Below, one piece after another: positions 4,262 to 11,061 of a stretch of DNA of 11,061 nt (its first letter is position 1; every line of letters begins with the position of its first letter). The notes beneath the pieces are model-generated. The model had not been told where the DNA came from, made no database searches, and worked only from the letters and a program-made list of their open reading frames with translations. Source of the DNA: Pseudomonadota bacterium. Lineage in GTDB: Bacteria > Myxococcota_A > Bradymonadia > UBA4248. The stretch spans positions 1 through 11,061 of the forward strand of contig WQTY01000034.1 in the NCBI GenBank assembly GCA_009786045.1, read 5' to 3'. The position numbers and the translations under genes were made by a program.

Positions 4262-5011
4262 ATGCGGATATTTGATGTTTTGGTGGATGCGGTTCCGGCG
4301 GATGCCCGGATCGTTGACGTATCCGTCGGCATTTTTTGGACATTTGTGCAGACACAGTATGGGTGTGCTTTGTCGGCAACAGCGCATCGCTGGGTAGAGG
4401 AGCCATTTGGCGTCGTTATCCCCTGGGCGGGTGAGCTTGTTGGTAAGCGAGTGCTGGATTTGGTGGAACTCTATGACGGTGTCTCACTGACGGGGCGTGC
4501 GCTGGCGAATGCAGCAGTTTCGGCAGCGTTTGGCACTCTGGAGGGCGGGCGTTTTTCGAATGGTTCAACGCAGGAACTGTTGTTGTCTCTGTGCCGTGAA
4601 TCGGCCAGGCCGCTTCATGTGGCGCTCGTGGGGCACTTTCATTTTGCAGAGGTACTGCGTCCTGCGGTACATCGCCTGGATGTGTATGAGCTGGATCATC
4701 GCTGCCAGCCGGGAGACATTCCGGCCACGTGTATGGCGCAGCGGCTGGCAGAGGCAGATATTGTTGTGATGACGTCTTCGACGCTGCTGACGCATGCTGC
4801 AGAGGCGGTTCTGTCATATTGCCGCAAGGATGCCGTGAAGATGATGGTGGGTCCGGGTGCGCCTTTGCACAGAACGTTGTGGGATTTTGGCTTTGACGTC
4901 ATTGGCGGGAGTATCGTTCGAGATGTTGCAGGTGTGCGTCTGGCGGTTGGCCAGGGGGGGGCGCATAAGCAGTTGCCTGGCGTAGAGAAGGTGAACTATT
5001 GGCGTGTTTAG
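4262..5011 (+). CDS. DUF364 / DUF4213 family protein (putative heavy-metal chelation)
   Basis: A 249-residue cytoplasmic protein of the DUF4213-DUF364 family. The family's structures show an enolase-N-like region plus a Rossmann-like domain, and a role in metal or metal-complex handling is proposed but unproven. Residues about 1-110 fit DUF4213 (FDVLVDAVPADARIVDVSVGIFWTFVQ; SLTGRALANAAVSAAFG). Residues about 118-245 fit DUF364: VALVGHFHF at 120-128, VYELDHR at 141-147, ADIVVMTSSTLLTHA at 165-179, VGPGAPL at 196-202, FDVIGGS at 211-217, then QGGAHKQLPGVEKV. Length is typical. The ATG at 4262 is the first possible start after an in-frame stop (tga 4253-4255). The ribosome site is poor (only gag at 4254-4256), and the codon lies just beyond a terminator. 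No transporter or corrinoid gene, the usual neighbours of this family, is present. Confidence 0.87.
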   Translation: MRIFDVLVDAVPADARIVDVSVGIFWTFVQTQYGCALSATAHRWVEEPFGVVIPWAGELVGKRVLDLVELYDGVSLTGRALANAAVSAAFGTLEGGRFSNGSTQELLLSLCRESARPLHVALVGHFHFAEVLRPAVHRLDVYELDHRCQPGDIPATCMAQRLAEADIVVMTSSTLLTHAAEAVLSYCRKDAVKMMVGPGAPLHRTLWDFGFDVIGGSIVRDVAGVRLAVGQGGAHKQLPGVEKVNYWRV

Positions 5012-5070
5012 GCGTCTATGGGGCGGATCGTGTGATGGATTGGAGCGTTTTTAGCTTAAGTGACGGCATA

Positions 5071-5096
5071 AGCAGACAGTGTTTCTTCTGTTTGCT
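5071..5096 (+). other. Stem-loop downstream of the DUF364 gene
   Basis: Arms agcagacag (5071-5079) and ctgtttgct (5088-5096) form nine pairs with one G-U around an 8-base loop, 60 bases after the stop codon. No T-run follows (gggcgggg instead), so it may be a processed 3' end or part of the repeat-rich spacer rather than an intrinsic terminator. Confidence 0.4.
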
Positions 5097-5145
5097 GGGC
5101 GGGGTATGTTGCCACAAACAATAACCTTTTGCCCTTCACCCACAA

Positions 5146-5201
5146 GCAATGCGTAGCATTGCAGGGGGTGTGGGGGAACTCGTTCCCCCACGAAAAGAAA
5201 A
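5146..5201 (+). repeat. Paired-hairpin intergenic repeat, copy 1
   Basis: Hairpin 1 is gcaatgc/gta/gcattgc (5146-5162, seven pairs, 3-base loop). The link is A-GGGGG-T. Hairpin 2 has arms gtgggggaac (5070+100 to 5179, that is 5170-5179) and gttcccccac (5182-5191), with a 2-base loop. An A-rich tail follows (gaaaagaaaa to 5201). The same four-part layout with the same lengths is at 10867-10919. It sits immediately upstream of mtnP; its tail runs into a possible -10 box TAAAAT (5207-5212). Confidence 0.85.
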
Positions 5202-5226
5202 CTGACTAAAATAGAGTGGAGGTCGT

Positions 5227-6108
5227 ATGGATAAGCGGGTGGAGATAGCAATCATTGGGGGGAGCGGCCTGAGCGAGATGGAGGGGATCAGGATCGTAGA
5301 CTCGGTGACAATGCTGACGCCGTTTGGTGCGCCGAGCGATAATATCACGATTGCGGAAGTGGGGGGGCGTTTGGTGGCGTTTTTACCGCGCCATGGGCGT
5401 GGCCATCGGATTCCTCCAACGCAAGTGCCTTATGCAGCAAATATTTGGGCACTGAAGCAGTTGGGCGTGTTTTGGGTTTTGACGTTTTCGGCGGTAGGGA
5501 GTTTGCGCCAGGAGATAGCGCCGGAGCATTTTTGTGTCCCCGACCAGATCATCGACAGAACACGGCATCGTCGTGAGACATTTTTTGACGATCTTGTGGT
5601 GCATGTTTCGTTTGCTCAGCCATTTAACGCGCAGCTCAGGCAGGTGTTATTGGAGGCATGCCGGGCAGAGGGCGTGACGACGCATGACGGTGGCGTGTAT
5701 GTTTGCATGGAGGGGCCTGCGTTTTCGACGCGTGCAGAGAGCCAGATGTACCGTGCCTGGGGTGGGGATATTATTGGGATGACGGCGATTCCTGAGGCGA
5801 AGCTTGCCATGGAGGCTGAGATGGCCTATGCGACAGTGGCCCTGGCAACGGACTATGATTGCTGGCATGAGTCTGTGGTGACCGTCGAAGAGGTTATCCG
5901 GCACATGGAGAGGAATGTTTCGAATGTCCATCGTGTCATTAAGCGCGTTGTTCCGCTCATTCCGCTGGGCACCGAGGCGCAGAATCCGGCATCTGAGGCG
6001 CTGAAGTGTGCGCTGACGACGCATGCCTCGCATATTCTTCCAAAACATCGCGAGAAGTACGAACTATTGTTGGCGAAGTATGTCGACTTTGATGGCAGCC
6101 GAAGGTAA
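5227..6108 (+). CDS. mtnP: S-methyl-5'-thioadenosine phosphorylase (MTAP)
   Basis: A 293-residue trimeric-type purine nucleoside phosphorylase that splits 5'-methylthioadenosine with phosphate into adenine and methylthioribose-1-phosphate, the entry step of methionine salvage in the cytoplasm. Family signatures are complete: phosphate-binding GGSG at 11-14; RHGRGHRIPPTQVPYAANIWALK at 55-77 in overlapping blocks; FSAVGSL at 87-93; VPDQIIDRT at 104-112; MEGPAFSTRAES at 161-172; GMTAIPEAKLAMEAE at 184-198; and TDYDCWH at 208-214. The Asp pair D209/D211 fits 6-aminopurine specificity (MTAP) rather than a guanosine or inosine phosphorylase. The start is the ATG after GGAGG (5218-5222, 4-base spacer). 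It overlaps kamA by up to 29 bases, so the two are co-transcribed and probably translationally coupled. The rest of the salvage pathway (mtnA, mtnB and so on) is not in the window. Confidence 0.96.
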   Translation: MDKRVEIAIIGGSGLSEMEGIRIVDSVTMLTPFGAPSDNITIAEVGGRLVAFLPRHGRGHRIPPTQVPYAANIWALKQLGVFWVLTFSAVGSLRQEIAPEHFCVPDQIIDRTRHRRETFFDDLVVHVSFAQPFNAQLRQVLLEACRAEGVTTHDGGVYVCMEGPAFSTRAESQMYRAWGGDIIGMTAIPEAKLAMEAEMAYATVALATDYDCWHESVVTVEEVIRHMERNVSNVHRVIKRVVPLIPLGTEAQNPASEALKCALTTHASHILPKHREKYELLLAKYVDFDGSRR

Positions 6109-7303
6109 GCCAAGACGAGATGAGGTGGCGGATGCTGCTTGCCTGTCGCGCCATCCGCAGGCTTTGCCTGAGGATGGCGTGGCATCGTCCTATGCCTGCC
6201 GTCCTCTGATATGGCGAGACGTGACAGAAGAGGCATGGTCGAGCTATGCCTGGCAGTGGTCGCATCGCTTGTTGACGGCAGAAATGCTTGACGCGGCGAT
6301 AGCGCTGATGCCGCCGGAGCGAGAGGCGATCTTAGCCATGCGTGGCACATTTCCGGCGGTGGTTTCTCCCCATTATGCGTCGTTGATTCGGCAGGATTTG
6401 GGTGCGGCATGTCCGATTCGGCGTCAGGCGATTCCTTCGGTGCACGAACTGGAAAGGCACGAGGGCCTGTTGGATGATCCGCTTGGGGAGGCTCGCCATT
6501 CCTATGCGGCATGTGCGACGCGCCGTTATCCTGACAGGGCTCTGATTTATACGACGCATGCGTGTGCGATGCGCTGCCGCCATTGTACGCGGCGCACGAA
6601 AGTTGGCCGGGCGTGTGAGCCGGGCCTCAGTCAGATTCGCGCGACGCTGTCAGAAATCGGCGCGGATGCGCGTGTGCGGGATGTATTGGTTTCTGGCGGG
6701 GATCCATTGAGTTTGCCTAATGCGGTTTTGGGTGAGGTTCTGAAGACGCTTCGCGGGTTTTCGCATGTGGATGTGATTCGGCTGTGTACGCGCATGCCTT
6801 GTACGCTTCCGCAGCGTTTTGATGATCCTGAGCTGCTGGCAATTTTAAGAGAAACGGCGCCGATTTATGTCAGCGTGCAGTTTAACCATGATTTGGAGGC
6901 AAGTCTGGAGTCTGCGCGAGCGCTGAAGCTGTTGCGCGAAGCCGGGTGTATTCTGAGCAACCAGAGCGTCTTGCTTCGTGGCGTGAATGATGTGCCGGAA
7001 GTTTTTGAGCGGCTGTATCGCTGGCTTCTTCGGCACGGCTGCCGCCCATACTACCTGTTTCAGTGTGATGCCGCGCAGGGGACGCGCCATTTTATGACAC
7101 CGATATCGCGCGGGCTGGAGATCGTGGATTTTTTGCGCGGCCGGCTGTCGGGACTTGGCATGCCACACTATGTCATCGACTTGCCGGACGGCATGGGCAA
7201 GGTCGAGCTTTGCCCAGATTATGTCGTTGGCGGGGAACGCGGGGGCAAGGTGATGTTCAGGAATTGGTGCGGCGACGTGGTGGCGTACGACGATGGCGTT
7301 TAG
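6080..7303 (+). CDS. kamA: KamA-family radical SAM protein, lysine 2,3-aminomutase
   Basis: About 407 residues, close to clostridial lysine 2,3-aminomutase, which moves the alpha-amino group of L-lysine to carbon 3 (beta-lysine) using a [4Fe-4S] cluster, SAM and PLP. The N-terminus keeps the WSSYAWQWSHRL block of KamA. The cluster motif C162-x3-C166-x2-C169 is followed by TRR. DVLVSGGDPL, NQSVLLRGVND and YYLFQCD match the family. PLP lysine is K374 (GMGK). D330 and D367 sit where LAM has Asp293 and Asp330, the residues that bind the lysine side-chain amine; spacing D367-K374 is identical. That argues against glutamate 2,3-aminomutase. Full length argues against short EpmB. Starts possible at 6080 or 6092 (both inside mtnP) or 6023; 6080 is preferred but its ribosome site is weak. 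Neither acetyltransferase ablB nor EF-P genes are adjacent, so the use of beta-lysine is open. Confidence 0.93.
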   Translation: MSTLMAAEGKPRRDEVADAACLSRHPQALPEDGVASSYACRPLIWRDVTEEAWSSYAWQWSHRLLTAEMLDAAIALMPPEREAILAMRGTFPAVVSPHYASLIRQDLGAACPIRRQAIPSVHELERHEGLLDDPLGEARHSYAACATRRYPDRALIYTTHACAMRCRHCTRRTKVGRACEPGLSQIRATLSEIGADARVRDVLVSGGDPLSLPNAVLGEVLKTLRGFSHVDVIRLCTRMPCTLPQRFDDPELLAILRETAPIYVSVQFNHDLEASLESARALKLLREAGCILSNQSVLLRGVNDVPEVFERLYRWLLRHGCRPYYLFQCDAAQGTRHFMTPISRGLEIVDFLRGRLSGLGMPHYVIDLPDGMGKVELCPDYVVGGERGGKVMFRNWCGDVVAYDDGV

Positions 7304-7605
7304 GATAGTTTGATCTTGGGAAACCATGGCTGCGGCATTGCCTGTAGATGCTGTAAGGGGGTGAGCGTTGGCATGCTGTGTTTGTTCGCCCGCTATTGCT
7401 CGCCCGAGGGGCGACAATACGCGGGCGGGCGCAGCTATCTGCAGGGCAGATACGCCGCGCCTTCTTGTGGCCGTTCGGACGGGAGCTGAATTTTTGGCAG
7501 CGGCAGCCATGAGGCAGAGGGGGAATTCTTTGGGGGTTTTGCGCAGATGTGTTAGAACTCGTGGCGTTTGGGACTTTTGAATGGGAATAGCCTGCGGAGA
7601 ATGAC
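7304..7605. other. 302-base intergenic region between kamA and the FHA gene
   Basis: No credible gene on either strand: short open frames at 7368-7580 (plus) and on the minus strand lack ribosome sites and family likeness. The region holds a strong double stem-loop (7387-7461, separate entry). A promoter for the FHA gene is expected in the last 130 bases, but no clear -35/-10 pair could be chosen. No T-rich terminator for kamA was found. Confidence 0.6.
7387..7461 (+). ncRNA. Two abutting stem-loops, possible structured RNA or palindromic repeat
   Basis: Stem-loop 1 (7387-7427) has 18 pairs in three blocks: 7387-7393 with 7421-7427, 7394-7398 with 7415-7419, and 7400-7405 with 7409-7414. It has single-base bulges at 7399 and 7420 and loop gag. 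Stem-loop 2 (7428-7461) has 7428-7432 with 7457-7461, then 34-35 with 54-55, then tatctgc (7436-7442) with gcagata (7446-7452), loop agg. There is no space between the two and no U-tract after them, so an ordinary terminator is unlikely. It could be a 5' leader element of the FHA mRNA, a kamA 3' stabiliser, a small RNA, or a repeat palindrome. Strand is assigned from flanking genes only. Confidence 0.45.
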
Positions 7606-10239
7606 GTGGCGAGAGTCATCTATCGAGACGATAATTATCAGACGGTTTATGTGGATGTGAATGTCCAGAATCCGGAGGTGACGGTTGGCAGAAATGCCGG
7701 CAATGCCATTGTCATCCCTGCAAAGTCACTTTCTCGCTATCACGCCAAGATTGTTTTTCAGAATGGGCGTTATTTTCTTATTGATTTGAAGAGCTCGAAT
7801 GGGAGCTATGTCAATGGCGCCCGTGTGACACAGCAGGAGATTCGTCCGGGCGACAAGCTGGCCTTTGGTGAGGTCGGTGTAGAGTTTACAGAGGCACCGG
7901 CATCAGGCGCGGGGGCGATGGCAGGGCCAGTGGCTGCTGGAGCGATGGGTCCTGGGCCGATGAATGTGGGTCCATTGGGGCCGGGGCCGATGGGGGCAGG
8001 ACCGATGCCGGGGGCGATGGGCCCTGGCAAACCGGCGGGTTTTCCTGGCGCAGATGGTCAGGGGATGGGCGGTCCAAAGCTTGCCGGGCCAAAGCTTCAG
8101 ATGTTTAATCCAGGCCTTCCGATGGGAGGTGCATCGTCAGATCCCCGCAATATCAACGTGCGCCCGATATCGAATCCAGGCAACTATCGCCCGACAATGC
8201 CCAACCAGCCATCGTTCGATCAGGATATGGAGCTGATGTTGCAACAGCAACAGCAGCGCTTGAATGCGCAGCCAGGCAGTGCGCCTTCCCAGGTTCCGGC
8301 GTCGCAGGGGATGGGCGAAGGGCAGCAGATGGGGATGGACCCCTCACTTGCACCTCGGACATTTGATCCTTCCACCATGGGTTATGCGCCGGGCATGATG
8401 GGTACGGGGATGGGCATGGATCCTCACCAGGCACCTGAACGCCGCGTGACATCATCTGCCTCAATGGCGCCTGCGCCCAGTCTGGGTGGCGGCATGGATC
8501 CCTCGCTTGCGCCCCGGACGTTTGATCCGGCGGCGATGGCGCCTGCGCCTAGTCTGGGTGGCGGCATGGATCCTGCGCTTGCACCCCGGACGTTTGAGCC
8601 CGACACGATGGGCTATGGTCCGGGTGGTGTGGGTGCCGGGATGGGGCTTGCGGATCCTTACCAGGCACCGATGCCTTCTGGTCGCACGGCCCCGCCTGCA
8701 CCTGGTTTTGGCGGCATGGATCCCGCGTTTGCGCCCCGAACGTTTGATGTGAATACGATGGGTTATGGGGGTGGTGTTGGGGCAGTTCAGCCGATGGCAT
8801 GGCATGATCAGGGATTGAGGCAGCATTCTGCATCGTGGCCGGATGCACCTGAGGGAGGCGTGTTTGGTCATGCCGAGCCAGGTGGGGAACATGAAAAAAC
8901 GGGGTTAGGGGCTTATCCAGAGGTGCCAGAAGAAGAGGCTTTCCAGGCCGGGAGTGGGCTGTCTCAGGAGGCGAATCAGAGTGGTGATGGGGCGCAGGGG
9001 GCGGTGTCGGACTATTCAGACATTCGATCTTCTGAGGTTGAACTTGAGCGACAAGCGGATTTATATGCTTCACGCCAGCGAACGAGAATTGGCCGTGAAC
9101 AGTCCGGGGCTCTGAGCAGTATGGCAAACCGTCGGCTTGCGCCGAGAGCGGGCCAGGCAAGCAGTGAGGTGGCAGCGCCTCGTGTGTCTCAGGATGCATC
9201 GACAACCAGTGGCATACTGCCGGCGAGGGCAACGAGAGGCAGGGAGCGTCATAGAGGGGGGTATGCGCCGCAGGCAGCACGCGTGTCGATGGTGGGACAG
9301 GGCAGTACCGACGGGGCGAGCATTTCTGACGAAAACCTCGCGCAGGAAATCTCTGATTTGGATGTGATGTCCCTGGGGAGTGCAGAACAGGCACCACTCG
9401 CTGTCGAAGAGATGTCTTTGTCCTCGGAGACAAGGGCGTCGAGCTCGCTGTCCATTCGAGTGGGTGCAGAATTGGCCGATGGGATGGCGGAGGCCCCGGA
9501 TGATTTTCTTCCGAATGTGTCGGGGGAGCCGAAGTCCGAGATCCTCACGTGTGGAGATCTTTTGTTTTTGGAGGAGGGACGGGGAAGCTGCCAATCGTCG
9601 GAAGATGGGGCATCGGCATCTGTGAGTTTTGATAATGGTCAGCCGGGTGAGGCCGGGGGAGGATACGAAGGGGAACGGCTTCGAGCTGTCAACGCCGAAC
9701 AGGCGGAGGTTCTCAACACCTATCGGCAGTTATCGGCACAGTTGTCGGAACAGAACGACGCGCTGTCTGCAAAGCTTGAACTTAAGCGTGCAGAGATCGA
9801 GGCTTTGCGCCAGCATGAGAAGGAGAATGACGGGCTGAGGCAAAGCATTGTTCAGCTTGAGGAGGGGGAGGCTTTGCTGCGTGAGCAACTTGCCCAAACC
9901 CAGTCTCGCGAAGCCTCACTCAGGCAGGAACTGGACGAGGCACACAGGCAGCTTGCCGAGTATCAGAGTGAAGCTGAGCAGGCACAGCGCCGTATTGATG
10001 AGGCAGAAGCCCAGTGTCACGCCCTTGGCCTGGAGGTAAACCATTTGAAGGATCGCAATAACGATCCCTTTGTGGTGTTGTGGCGCGAACGTTTTGGTGC
10101 GCTTGAACGCTATGCAGCATCGCTTGAATGTGCTACACACCAGCTTGACCTTGAAAGCATCGATCCGAAAGCCTTAGAAAACGTACGTTCAATGCGCGAA
10201 GTGATTGCGTTTTGTGCGACGTCGCTAAGTCAGGATTGA
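7606..10239 (+). CDS. FHA-domain protein with long repeat-rich linker and C-terminal coiled coil
   Basis: An 877-residue cytoplasmic-type protein (no signal peptide). Residues about 5-95 are a good forkhead-associated domain: GR at 28-29, SLSRYH at 41-46, SSNG at 63-66 and NG at 70-71. FHA domains bind phosphothreonine peptides, so it probably docks to a target of a Ser/Thr kinase. Residues about 100-165 are Gly/Pro/Met-rich (GPM-type repeats). Residues about 244-400 hold four copies of a MDPxxAPRTFD unit (see repeat entry). Residues about 400-690 are polar low-complexity sequence. Residues about 696-815 are an uninterrupted Glu/Gln/Leu-rich coiled coil (QLSAQLSEQNDALSAKLE and on). The last 60 residues are a conserved-looking helical tail (LWRERFGALERYAASLE). 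The start is GTG at 7606, six bases after GGAGA (7595-7599); the ATG at 7601 is out of frame. FHA proteins regulate secretion systems, cell division or signalling; which applies here is not shown. Confidence 0.9.
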   Translation: MARVIYRDDNYQTVYVDVNVQNPEVTVGRNAGNAIVIPAKSLSRYHAKIVFQNGRYFLIDLKSSNGSYVNGARVTQQEIRPGDKLAFGEVGVEFTEAPASGAGAMAGPVAAGAMGPGPMNVGPLGPGPMGAGPMPGAMGPGKPAGFPGADGQGMGGPKLAGPKLQMFNPGLPMGGASSDPRNINVRPISNPGNYRPTMPNQPSFDQDMELMLQQQQQRLNAQPGSAPSQVPASQGMGEGQQMGMDPSLAPRTFDPSTMGYAPGMMGTGMGMDPHQAPERRVTSSASMAPAPSLGGGMDPSLAPRTFDPAAMAPAPSLGGGMDPALAPRTFEPDTMGYGPGGVGAGMGLADPYQAPMPSGRTAPPAPGFGGMDPAFAPRTFDVNTMGYGGGVGAVQPMAWHDQGLRQHSASWPDAPEGGVFGHAEPGGEHEKTGLGAYPEVPEEEAFQAGSGLSQEANQSGDGAQGAVSDYSDIRSSEVELERQADLYASRQRTRIGREQSGALSSMANRRLAPRAGQASSEVAAPRVSQDASTTSGILPARATRGRERHRGGYAPQAARVSMVGQGSTDGASISDENLAQEISDLDVMSLGSAEQAPLAVEEMSLSSETRASSSLSIRVGAELADGMAEAPDDFLPNVSGEPKSEILTCGDLLFLEEGRGSCQSSEDGASASVSFDNGQPGEAGGGYEGERLRAVNAEQAEVLNTYRQLSAQLSEQNDALSAKLELKRAEIEALRQHEKENDGLRQSIVQLEEGEALLREQLAQTQSREASLRQELDEAHRQLAEYQSEAEQAQRRIDEAEAQCHALGLEVNHLKDRNNDPFVVLWRERFGALERYAASLECATHQLDLESIDPKALENVRSMREVIAFCATSLSQD
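8335..8790 (+). repeat. Imperfect coding repeats in the FHA protein linker
   Basis: Four copies of MDPxxAPRTF(D/E)P begin at residues 244, 297, 321 and 371 of the FHA protein. Copies 1 and 3 are long (53 and 50 residues) and continue with xTMGYxPG, GMG, DPxQAP and a Gly-rich end. Copy 2 is only 24 residues, lacking that middle part; copy 4 decays. At DNA level, 8464-8535 and 8536-8607 are a 72-base in-frame tandem duplication with only a few differences. This shows growth by unit duplication and internal deletion. Confidence 0.88.
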
Positions 10240-10326
10240 TAAAGAGGCAGTTTTTGTTGTGCGCACATCGGCCCAGGGGCCGCGGATAGCGTGCAGCGGC
10301 TAAAAAATGGCGTTAACGACCTGTAG

Positions 10327-10335
10327 AGGGAGGAG
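10327..10335 (+). promoter_or_regulatory. Ribosome binding site that decides the superoxide reductase start
   Basis: AGGGAGGAG is two bases from an in-frame TTG (10338) and eight bases from the ATG at 10344. The ATG is therefore the better start, and it gives the usual short N-terminus before the first Cys pair. Confidence 0.7.
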
Positions 10336-10343
10336 ATTTGGCT

Positions 10344-10730
10344 ATGCAGTTTTATCATTGTGAGGTCTGTGACAATCTTGCGGGCATGATTCACGATTCT
10401 GGTGTCGTGCCTGTTTGCTGCGATGAGGTGATGAAGTCACTTGTTGCGAATACGGTCGATGCGAGTCATGAGAAGCATTTGCCGGTGGTAACGATCTCGA
10501 GTGACGAACGAGAGACGCGCGTGTTGGTTCAGGTTGGCAGCGTGCCGCACCCCATGACCAAGGAGCATCTCATTGAGTGGATATTTATCGAGACGAACAA
10601 GGGCAGACATCGCCGCGCGTTGGTGGCGGATGATGCGCCGACGGCGAGTTTCCTGCTTATTCAGGGTGAATTGCCGACAGCCGTCTATGCGTATTGCAAT
10701 CTGCACGGGCTTTGGAAGACGGCGCTGTAA
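10344..10730 (+). CDS. dfx: Desulfoferrodoxin, two-iron superoxide reductase
   Basis: A 128-residue cytoplasmic enzyme that reduces superoxide to hydrogen peroxide without releasing oxygen, used by anaerobes and microaerophiles. The N-terminal desulforedoxin domain has all four Cys ligands of the rubredoxin-like iron (C6, C9, C25, C26). The catalytic domain has the full His4-Cys site: H45 in EKHLPVV, H69 in VPHPM, H75 in KEHLIEWI, C118 and H121 in CNLHGLWK. The active-site Glu-Lys pair (E43-K44) is kept. It is therefore the complete two-iron type, not neelaredoxin. It lies 104 bases after the FHA gene with its own strong ribosome site and is probably transcribed separately. No rubredoxin (usual electron donor), rubrerythrin or catalase gene is in the window. 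Confidence 0.96.
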   Translation: MQFYHCEVCDNLAGMIHDSGVVPVCCDEVMKSLVANTVDASHEKHLPVVTISSDERETRVLVQVGSVPHPMTKEHLIEWIFIETNKGRHRRALVADDAPTASFLLIQGELPTAVYAYCNLHGLWKTAL

Positions 10731-10866
10731 TTGCGTTTTTAACAGGGGGCAGAAGATGTTCTGCCACTATATGTCTTACCCATAAGCGGAGAACTGGTTC
10801 CAAAGAAATGAAAAGCCTTCAAAGAGGCAATCATTTTCATCCAGAGGCAGCAATTTTTGCCCCAAA

Positions 10867-10919
10867 GCGATACGCAGTATCGCAGGGGGTGTGGGGGAAC
10901 AAGTTCCCCCACAAAAAAA
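10867..10919 (+). repeat. Paired-hairpin intergenic repeat, copy 2
   Basis: Hairpin 1 is gcgatac/gca/gtatcgc (10867-10883). The link is A-GGGGG-T. Hairpin 2 has arms gtgggggaac (10891-10900) and gttcccccac (10903-10912), with loop aa. The tail is seven A (10913-10919). Compared with 5146-5201, hairpin 1 differs by two paired changes that keep both base pairs plus one loop base, and hairpin 2 differs only in its loop. Upstream, both copies are preceded by a TTTTGCCC word. Confidence 0.87.
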
Positions 10920-10922
10920 TCT

Positions 10923-10948
10923 GTAGGGGCGACCGTCCCGGTCGCCCG
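10923..10948 (+). repeat. REP-like palindrome with GTAG foot
   Basis: GTAG (10923-10926) is directly followed by a perfect 8-bp stem, gggcgacc (10927-10934) with ggtcgccc (10940-10947), loop gtccc, then G. Further short hairpins abut it: gcgac/gca/gtcgc (10951-10963) and gcgggg/tgt/ccccgc (10976-10990). Confidence 0.7.
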
Positions 10949-11006
10949 CTGCGACGCAGTCGCCGACGGGGCGTTGCGGGGTGTCCCCGCACAGGGGGTA
11001 GCCGCG

Positions 11007-11048
11007 TATCGGCACGTAGGGGCGCGCAGTGCGCGTCCGGTGCCGATA
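11007..11048 (+). repeat. Nested palindrome containing a REP-like GTAG stem
   Basis: The outer stem tatcggcac (11007-11015) pairs with gtgccgata (11040-11048) perfectly over nine pairs. Inside, GTAG (11016-11019) is followed by an 8-pair stem with one G-U (11020-11027 with 11031-11038, loop agt). The right outer arm overlaps the 18-base word cgatagcggcgcaggggg (11044-11061) shared with 72-89, so another GCAGGGGG element probably starts here and continues past the window. Confidence 0.7.
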
Positions 11049-11061
11049 GCGGCGCAGGGGG

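Follow-up and report, generated by a model that had tools for sequence, protein, structure and literature searches.

The 11,061-nucleotide (nt) contig WQTY01000034.1 of assembly GCA_009786045.1, from a bacterium that GTDB places in Myxococcota_A (class Bradymonadia, UBA4248), carries two copies of a two-hairpin sequence whose stems differ while remaining paired, and it raises the question of what kind of element this is and where it resides. The window is this whole contig (C34 among our sequences), and the home genome is the 2.62-Mb draft to which it belongs (456 contigs, 82.6% complete). A preliminary description of the window had pointed out the two copies, and reading the sequence confirmed their positions (Table 1) and their common layout and lengths. 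As it had stated, two differences in hairpin 1 are compensatory (pair 3 changes from A-T to G-C and pair 6 from G-C to A-T), the third falls within the loop, and for hairpin 2 the loop is the sole difference. Both hairpins stand as described, but the longer element to which they belong and its position at gene ends had been overlooked. The reading that we favor, with reservations set out below, is that of a dispersed element resembling repetitive extragenic palindromes (REPs), probably a miniature inverted-repeat transposable element (MITE), which ends up as a hairpin in the 3′ untranslated region (3′-UTR) of genes and has a few hundred copies at home and cousins in the family.

The home genome was searched with the linker and hairpin 2 as a pattern, allowing up to 2 mismatches, and the reversed pattern served as the control. 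There were 291 matches against 10 in the control, about one per 9 kb, which disposes of the possibility that the element is limited to the two copies in the window. The hairpin-2 pattern had no exact match in viral contigs, and a viral origin was set aside. For 164 distinct copies, chosen by listing order or score and never by context, genes were called with a custom dicodon caller script and left uncurated. Placement is predominantly intergenic, and gene calls enclose 9 copies. A further 27 lack a gene on the A-rich side of hairpin 2 within the fetched piece, and at the others the gene on that side is antiparallel (83) or parallel (45) to the element.

The setting of the copies is fixed: a gene adjoins the A-rich side of hairpin 2, and mostly that side lies right behind the stop codon of an antiparallel gene. 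Of the 83 antiparallel cases, 71 have this stop codon no more than 26 nt away and 58 no more than 15 nt, distances being measured to two bases past the stem foot in the rows inspected (foot-to-stop is two more); in an earlier run on 116 copies, the 26-nt limit took in 51 of 60. Where genes flank both sides (n = 75), the stop is within 26 nt in 67, while uniform placement in the gap predicts 10.6 and reached at most 23 in 20000 simulations. The 5′ side has no such closeness (2 of 112, assuming an 85-nt 5′ half). Stop codons within 33 nt of a copy are TAG in 48 of 72 cases, TGA in 16 and TAA in 8, compared with TAG at 68 of 191 other genes (Fisher p 7e-6).

The two-hairpin unit belongs to a longer element (about 175 bp in one subfamily), of which it forms the 3′ half. 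Read by eye, the conserved sequence upstream of the hairpins falls into at least three 5′ types. In type A, or subfamily A, the 5′ end carries TANAGCRTTTTCAG and the 3′ end CTGAAAATGCTCTA, and the eight copies with no more than 3 mismatches at each end are 162-198 bp long. The limits first given for copy 1 were drawn too tight: a terminal repeat with 2 mismatches starts at 5041, roughly 105 nt before hairpin 1, and positions 5044-5119 match other copies at 84%. In a set of 95 copies, 18 had the upstream terminal repeat when up to 2 mismatches were allowed, as did 10 of 950 control windows; with up to 3 allowed, 16 had the downstream repeat, as did 7 of 950. Terminal inverted repeats are real in a minority of copies and unrecognised in most. 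Several subfamily A copies have TA at their outer ends, and the draft as a whole has 80 terminal-repeat sites (11 in the control), among them six inward-facing pairs 116-226 bp apart. An autonomous transposon with the same ends was sought by eye, and none was seen among the 80 sites. One copy (L016) has a tandem duplication of about 60 bp in its 5′ half, upstream of the hairpins.

These features could also be those of a selfish insertion that prefers stop codons or their TA and leaves host genes unaffected, its hairpins serving the mobilising enzyme alone. The TAG excess at adjoining stops fits such an insertion, as do terminal repeats that start TANAGC and overlap the stop in many copies, and the C-termini of several host proteins, which we take to be complete. 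It sits less well with the copies that lack a recognisable repeat and have the same spacing, with the TGA stops, and with the failure to find a transposase at the 80 terminal-repeat sites inspected. We regard selfish insertion as possible but not probable.

The pairing in the stems was assessed on 98 distinct home copies, of which 82 were aligned with MAFFT, blind to structure, after excluding 16 that had no plain hairpin 1. Hairpin 1 is GCAATGC/GCATTGC in 50 copies, GCGATAC/GTATCGC in 22 and GCGATGC/GCATCGC in 4; rarer forms are the mismatched GCAATGC/GCATCGC (2) and singles including GCGAAAC/GTTTCGC. Hairpin 2 varies at its ends (GT..AC, GC..GC, TC..GA) and in its inner part (AAC/AGC). Pairing holds in 98.3% of the 1722 stem cells, which are not independent events, and both sides change in 6 of 21 pairs. 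Compensatory cells number 83. Shuffled alignments gave 21.4, none of 500 reaching 83, and slid versions gave 0-12. The stems are conserved as pairings rather than as letters, and the opposite outcome, stem changes as often unpaired as paired, is contradicted by changes that are overwhelmingly paired. Further pair types, at 13 against 12.3 (163 of 500 shuffles as high), do not exceed the shuffles, and covariation at home consequently depends on a small set of change types that recur in many copies. A candidate outer stem of four pairs is 93.9% paired with one-sided changes alone, and we make no claim on it. When folded, copies 1 and 2 of the window beat 200 of 200 shuffles on the + strand (z -4.29 and -4.65) and on the - strand (z -4.17 and -5.48). 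Unpaired stem cells in both hairpins of the 164 copies comprise 16 G-U, 14 A-C and 19 other; because these mismatches favor neither strand, selection at the RNA level is unproven.

Cousins of the element were collected with a covariance model, as the preliminary description had proposed, and at E<=1 the model matched in all 8 genomes of the family: 150 times at home (the number scored), 128 in G004, 44 in G006, 37 in G005 and 5-8 in each of the others. At E<=0.01 it retained 109 in G004, 34 in G006 and 23 in G005. The hairpin-2 pattern matched in 24 of 57 related genomes, outside the family mostly at control level; counts above the control were 68 against 1 in G004 and, outside the family, 14 against 0 in G010. 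Many of the 14 matches in G010, a member of the same class, are on one contig (C164; e.g. L051, L068), and the sequence there is unlike the home element. Many G004 copies lie near contig ends, from which we conclude that the repeat probably breaks assemblies and that copy numbers are lower bounds.

In relatives belonging to another genus the layout is kept and the stem letters are different. Hairpin 1 of G005 is GAAAAGC/GCTTTTC or GAAATGC/GCATTTC, still 7+3+7, followed by a similar linker and a 10+2+10 hairpin 2. The hairpin-1 stem of G004 is at least 18 bp, usually 23, in 22 of 29 copies, 18 of these 22 being distinct. An alignment of the 22 shows change on both sides in 12 of 33 pairs and 50 such cells, against 15.1 shuffled (0 of 500) and 0-7 when slid; its unpaired hairpin-1 cells are 15 G-U, 3 A-C and 2 other, in copies that share descent. 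A plain hairpin 1 was not seen in G006, G003, G007, G002 and one G005 copy, where hairpin 2 is a long stem with a left arm like the upstream pyrimidine box. In examples such as L123, L115 and L141, the pyrimidine box upstream of GGAGGGGGT could pair with the right arm of hairpin 2 instead. The A-rich side was a requirement of the script that gathered copies from these relatives, and its presence there is no finding. By an open reading frame (ORF) test, copies lie at a stop in 20 of 33 cases in G004, 13 of 16 in G006, 4 of 8 in G005 and 3 of 4 in G003, compared with 18-23% of random positions in the same genomes. Sharing of positions between genera was considered and rejected, 1 of 40 relative ORFs ending at copies matching any of the 104 home genes beside copies.

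What maintains the pairing may be a mobilising enzyme, a role in RNA or template-switch repair. Of the earlier proposal that selection acts on a folded structure, the pattern stands, with pairing kept and letters not in the 82 home and 22 relative copies, and selection is a candidate cause. Template switching between hairpin arms at replication could itself make paired changes and perfect the palindromes, with no structural selection. Quasipalindrome mutations of this type are described in abstracts, and at home one-sided changes are very few and show no strand preference. G005 nevertheless retains stem, loop and linker lengths while its stem letters differ, and in G004 G-U outnumbers A-C by 15 to 3, though the copies share descent. 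We regard template switching as a serious alternative source of the pairing, possible but not probable.

A different use of the element would be as a structured regulatory RNA made from its own strand, for instance in the 5′-UTR of parallel genes. When the gene on the A-rich side is parallel, its start is within 36 nt in 20 of 45 cases (16 of the 37 with genes on both sides, 4.5 expected), including that of copy 1, which precedes a PNP_UDP_1 gene starting at 5227 on the same strand. The base-pair covariation at home and in G004 is also consistent with an RNA. Antiparallel settings are commoner, however (83 to 45), G-U on the + strand is not favored at home, and no Rfam family was found: the window has no match at curated cut-offs, and five other copy-bearing loci gave sub-threshold, chance-like matches alone. 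We consider such an RNA improbable. The same Rfam result agrees with the earlier remark that no named element of this exact form was known to its author, a remark that overlooked the likeness to REPs. An intrinsic transcription terminator would account for a strong hairpin shortly behind stop codons, but on the gene strand the T-rich run precedes the stem rather than following it, and a scan of the copy 1 region (4900-5400) found no terminator-like site; this is the least probable of the explanations considered.

REPs are the closest comparison for the position. Passages in PMC3733652 place them <20 bp from ORF 3′ ends, chiefly between convergent and unidirectional genes, and state that their GTAG termini often supply the TAG stop. 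For Escherichia coli, work cited in PMC12306157 has REPs <16 nt from the stop reducing translation. Like the REPs of the GTAG and CGTC super-families, as these are characterized in parts of PMC3733652, the home element is a high-copy, mainly intergenic palindrome near ORF 3′ ends, and its ends may give TAG stops. Unlike them, it places two stems within about 67 nt as part of a longer conserved body and is not a single 20-40 bp palindrome. A GTAG or CGTC tag was present in 1 of 164 copies at the three feet examined (5′ of hairpin 1, in the linker, and 3′ of hairpin 2 on the other strand).

The sparse tag bears on whether the element is a GTAG-type REP mobilised by a REP-associated tyrosine transposase (RAYT). 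The home genome has four Y1_Tnp genes, and one such gene (L040:292-957) has two element copies nearby; in its N-terminal part it may resemble the translation of some other kind of REP. These copies are at about the level expected by chance for the copy density near one gene among several. L040 is also the sole locus with copies among the 14 Y1_Tnp loci of the family, the other 13 having none, and no Y1_Tnp gene was found in the draft genomes G004 and G003, though G004 has 109 matches at E<=0.01. In lacking a general RAYT association the element differs from GTAG-type REPs, and mobilisation by a RAYT appears very unlikely.

As a short, non-coding sequence with TA-bounded terminal inverted repeats in subfamily A, the element also resembles IS630-type MITEs such as the Correia and RUP elements, named in a passage of PMC2817692. 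It departs from them in that its repeats are recognisable in a minority of copies, no autonomous partner was seen, its gene-end position is strict and target duplication is not established. Outside the family, the hairpin-2 core was found in at least 7 stretches, the genomes listed including an Armatimonadetes metagenome-assembled genome (MAG), the Spirochaetaceae MAGs bin84 and bin53 and Desulfovibrio sp. A2. A count within these four genomes gave 7, 26, 77 and 1 matches, respectively, and 0 in the control. The high-copy repeat of Spirochaetaceae MAG Pc512_bin53 has a near-identical core, GGGGGTTTGGGGGAACTGGTTCCCCCAA (77 matches, 0 in the control), but its body is different and the stop-codon rule fails there: 8 of 41 copies have an antiparallel gene on that side, and 2 of these 8 genes end within 28 nt. 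Having the core alone in common, the spirochaete repeat was rejected as the same element, and the core of the two may have a common origin. In the bin53 loci (L299-L337), a nearly identical core of GGGGGT and G5/C5 stands in this other body, which has the ends GGCGCCTC and GAGGCGC; these two seem capable of pairing.

Several observations weigh against the REP-like, mobile element that we favor. A recognisable terminal repeat is missing from most of the 95 copies examined, and copies that lack it are equally near the stop. TA ends are seen without target duplication being established, and TGA, at 16 of 72 stops, is not derivable from insertion into TA. No autonomous partner was seen among the 80 terminal-repeat sites, nor, by eye, any inward-facing pair of insertion-sequence size. 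Home mismatches give no signal of a strand preference (16 G-U, 14 A-C). Where a gene is present on the A-rich side (128 copies), 45 face a start and not a stop; in the window, copy 1 faces a parallel start and copy 2 has no visible gene there, leaving neither in the stop-codon setting. In the relatives, 0 of 4 copies in G007 and G002 are at a stop, and of the four antiparallel genes in G005, two have their ends as far off as 156 and 272 nt.

On the favored reading of a REP-like element that is probably a MITE, copies would spread in trans as non-autonomous transposons. They would come to rest at stop codons, a site that leaves the protein intact and at which the end of the element can supply a TAG stop. 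The transcript of the gene would then run from the stop through a U-rich spacer into a strong G5/C5 hairpin, a C-rich linker and the second hairpin. We do not class the home element as a REP, but by analogy it may work like one: the hairpin would act as a barrier at the 3′ end against exonucleases and, at a short distance from the stop, as a brake on translation, as REPs are held to do.

In some copies the hairpins themselves hold other palindromes. Of the 144 slots for hairpin 1, most (130) are plain; one of four other palindromic modules occupies 12 (carriers L009, L012, L018, L026, L033, L073, L086, L106, L167, L168 and L184), and other long sequence occupies 2. Where a module is present, the left arm is whole and the right arm shortened. 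The loop of hairpin 2 is short in 133 of 156 cases and contains a long palindromic module in 4 (L175, L177, L179, L187); the script did not close the other 19. Hairpin loops may serve other palindromes as targets or break points. More speculatively, and with rather low confidence, we suggest a further REP-like class with neither GTAG/CGTC tag nor RAYT, which would carry a GGGGGT tag before a G5/C5 hairpin and target stop codons directly, its loops serving as landing sites for other palindromes, the nesting of which would enlarge intergenic regions.

Table 1. Parts of the two element copies in the window.
Feature	Positions	Strand	Remarks
5′ terminal repeat, copy 1, diverged	5041-5054	+	2 mismatches to TAGAGCRTTTTCAG
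5′ half, copy 1 (subfamily A body)	5055-5145	+	by comparison with other copies
Hairpin 1, copy 1	5146-5162	+	GCAATGC-GTA-GCATTGC; stem 7 bp, loop 3 bases
Linker AGGGGGT, copy 1	5163-5169	+	linker columns invariant across the 82 aligned home copies
Hairpin 2, copy 1	5170-5191	+	GTGGGGGAAC-TC-GTTCCCCCAC; stem 10 bp, loop 2 bases
A-rich 3′ stretch, copy 1	5192-5201 (end approximate)	+	3′ terminal repeat unrecognisable, best has 5 mismatches
5′ part, copy 2, of a 5′ type unlike copy 1	10819-10866 (limits approximate)	+	read by eye beside other copies
Hairpin 1, copy 2	10867-10883	+	GCGATAC-GCA-GTATCGC
Linker AGGGGGT, copy 2	10884-10890	+	read in the sequence
Hairpin 2, copy 2	10891-10912	+	loop AA
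A-rich tail, copy 2	10913-10919	+	followed by other palindromic sequence up to the contig end, 11061

Elsewhere in the window, positions 10920-11061 and about 60-180 contain palindromic repeats of other kinds (GTAGGGGCGACC..GGTCGCCC, GGGGCGTTGCGGGG, GCAGGGGGCGTTGCCCCC), and the contig ends inside such an array. The ORF at 7606-10239 encodes an FHA-domain protein with repeated MDP.LAPRTFDP-like motifs in its middle part. At 6023-6108, an ORF of radical SAM / lysine aminomutase type overlaps the end of the PNP_UDP_1 gene, the gene caller preferring a start at 6092.

We know of no established reason why REPs are placed right behind stop codons. Finding REP spacing, with counts and controls, in an element set apart from REPs by its tag, its body and its transposase link makes the position separable from the sequence and from RAYTs. 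If the further REP-like class is real, the tag would be a cross-phylum recognition site, given that two Spirochaetaceae MAGs have high-copy repeats with a near-identical core. The turnover of stem letters between genera, with the layout kept, makes this family a good case for telling structural selection from template-switch repair.

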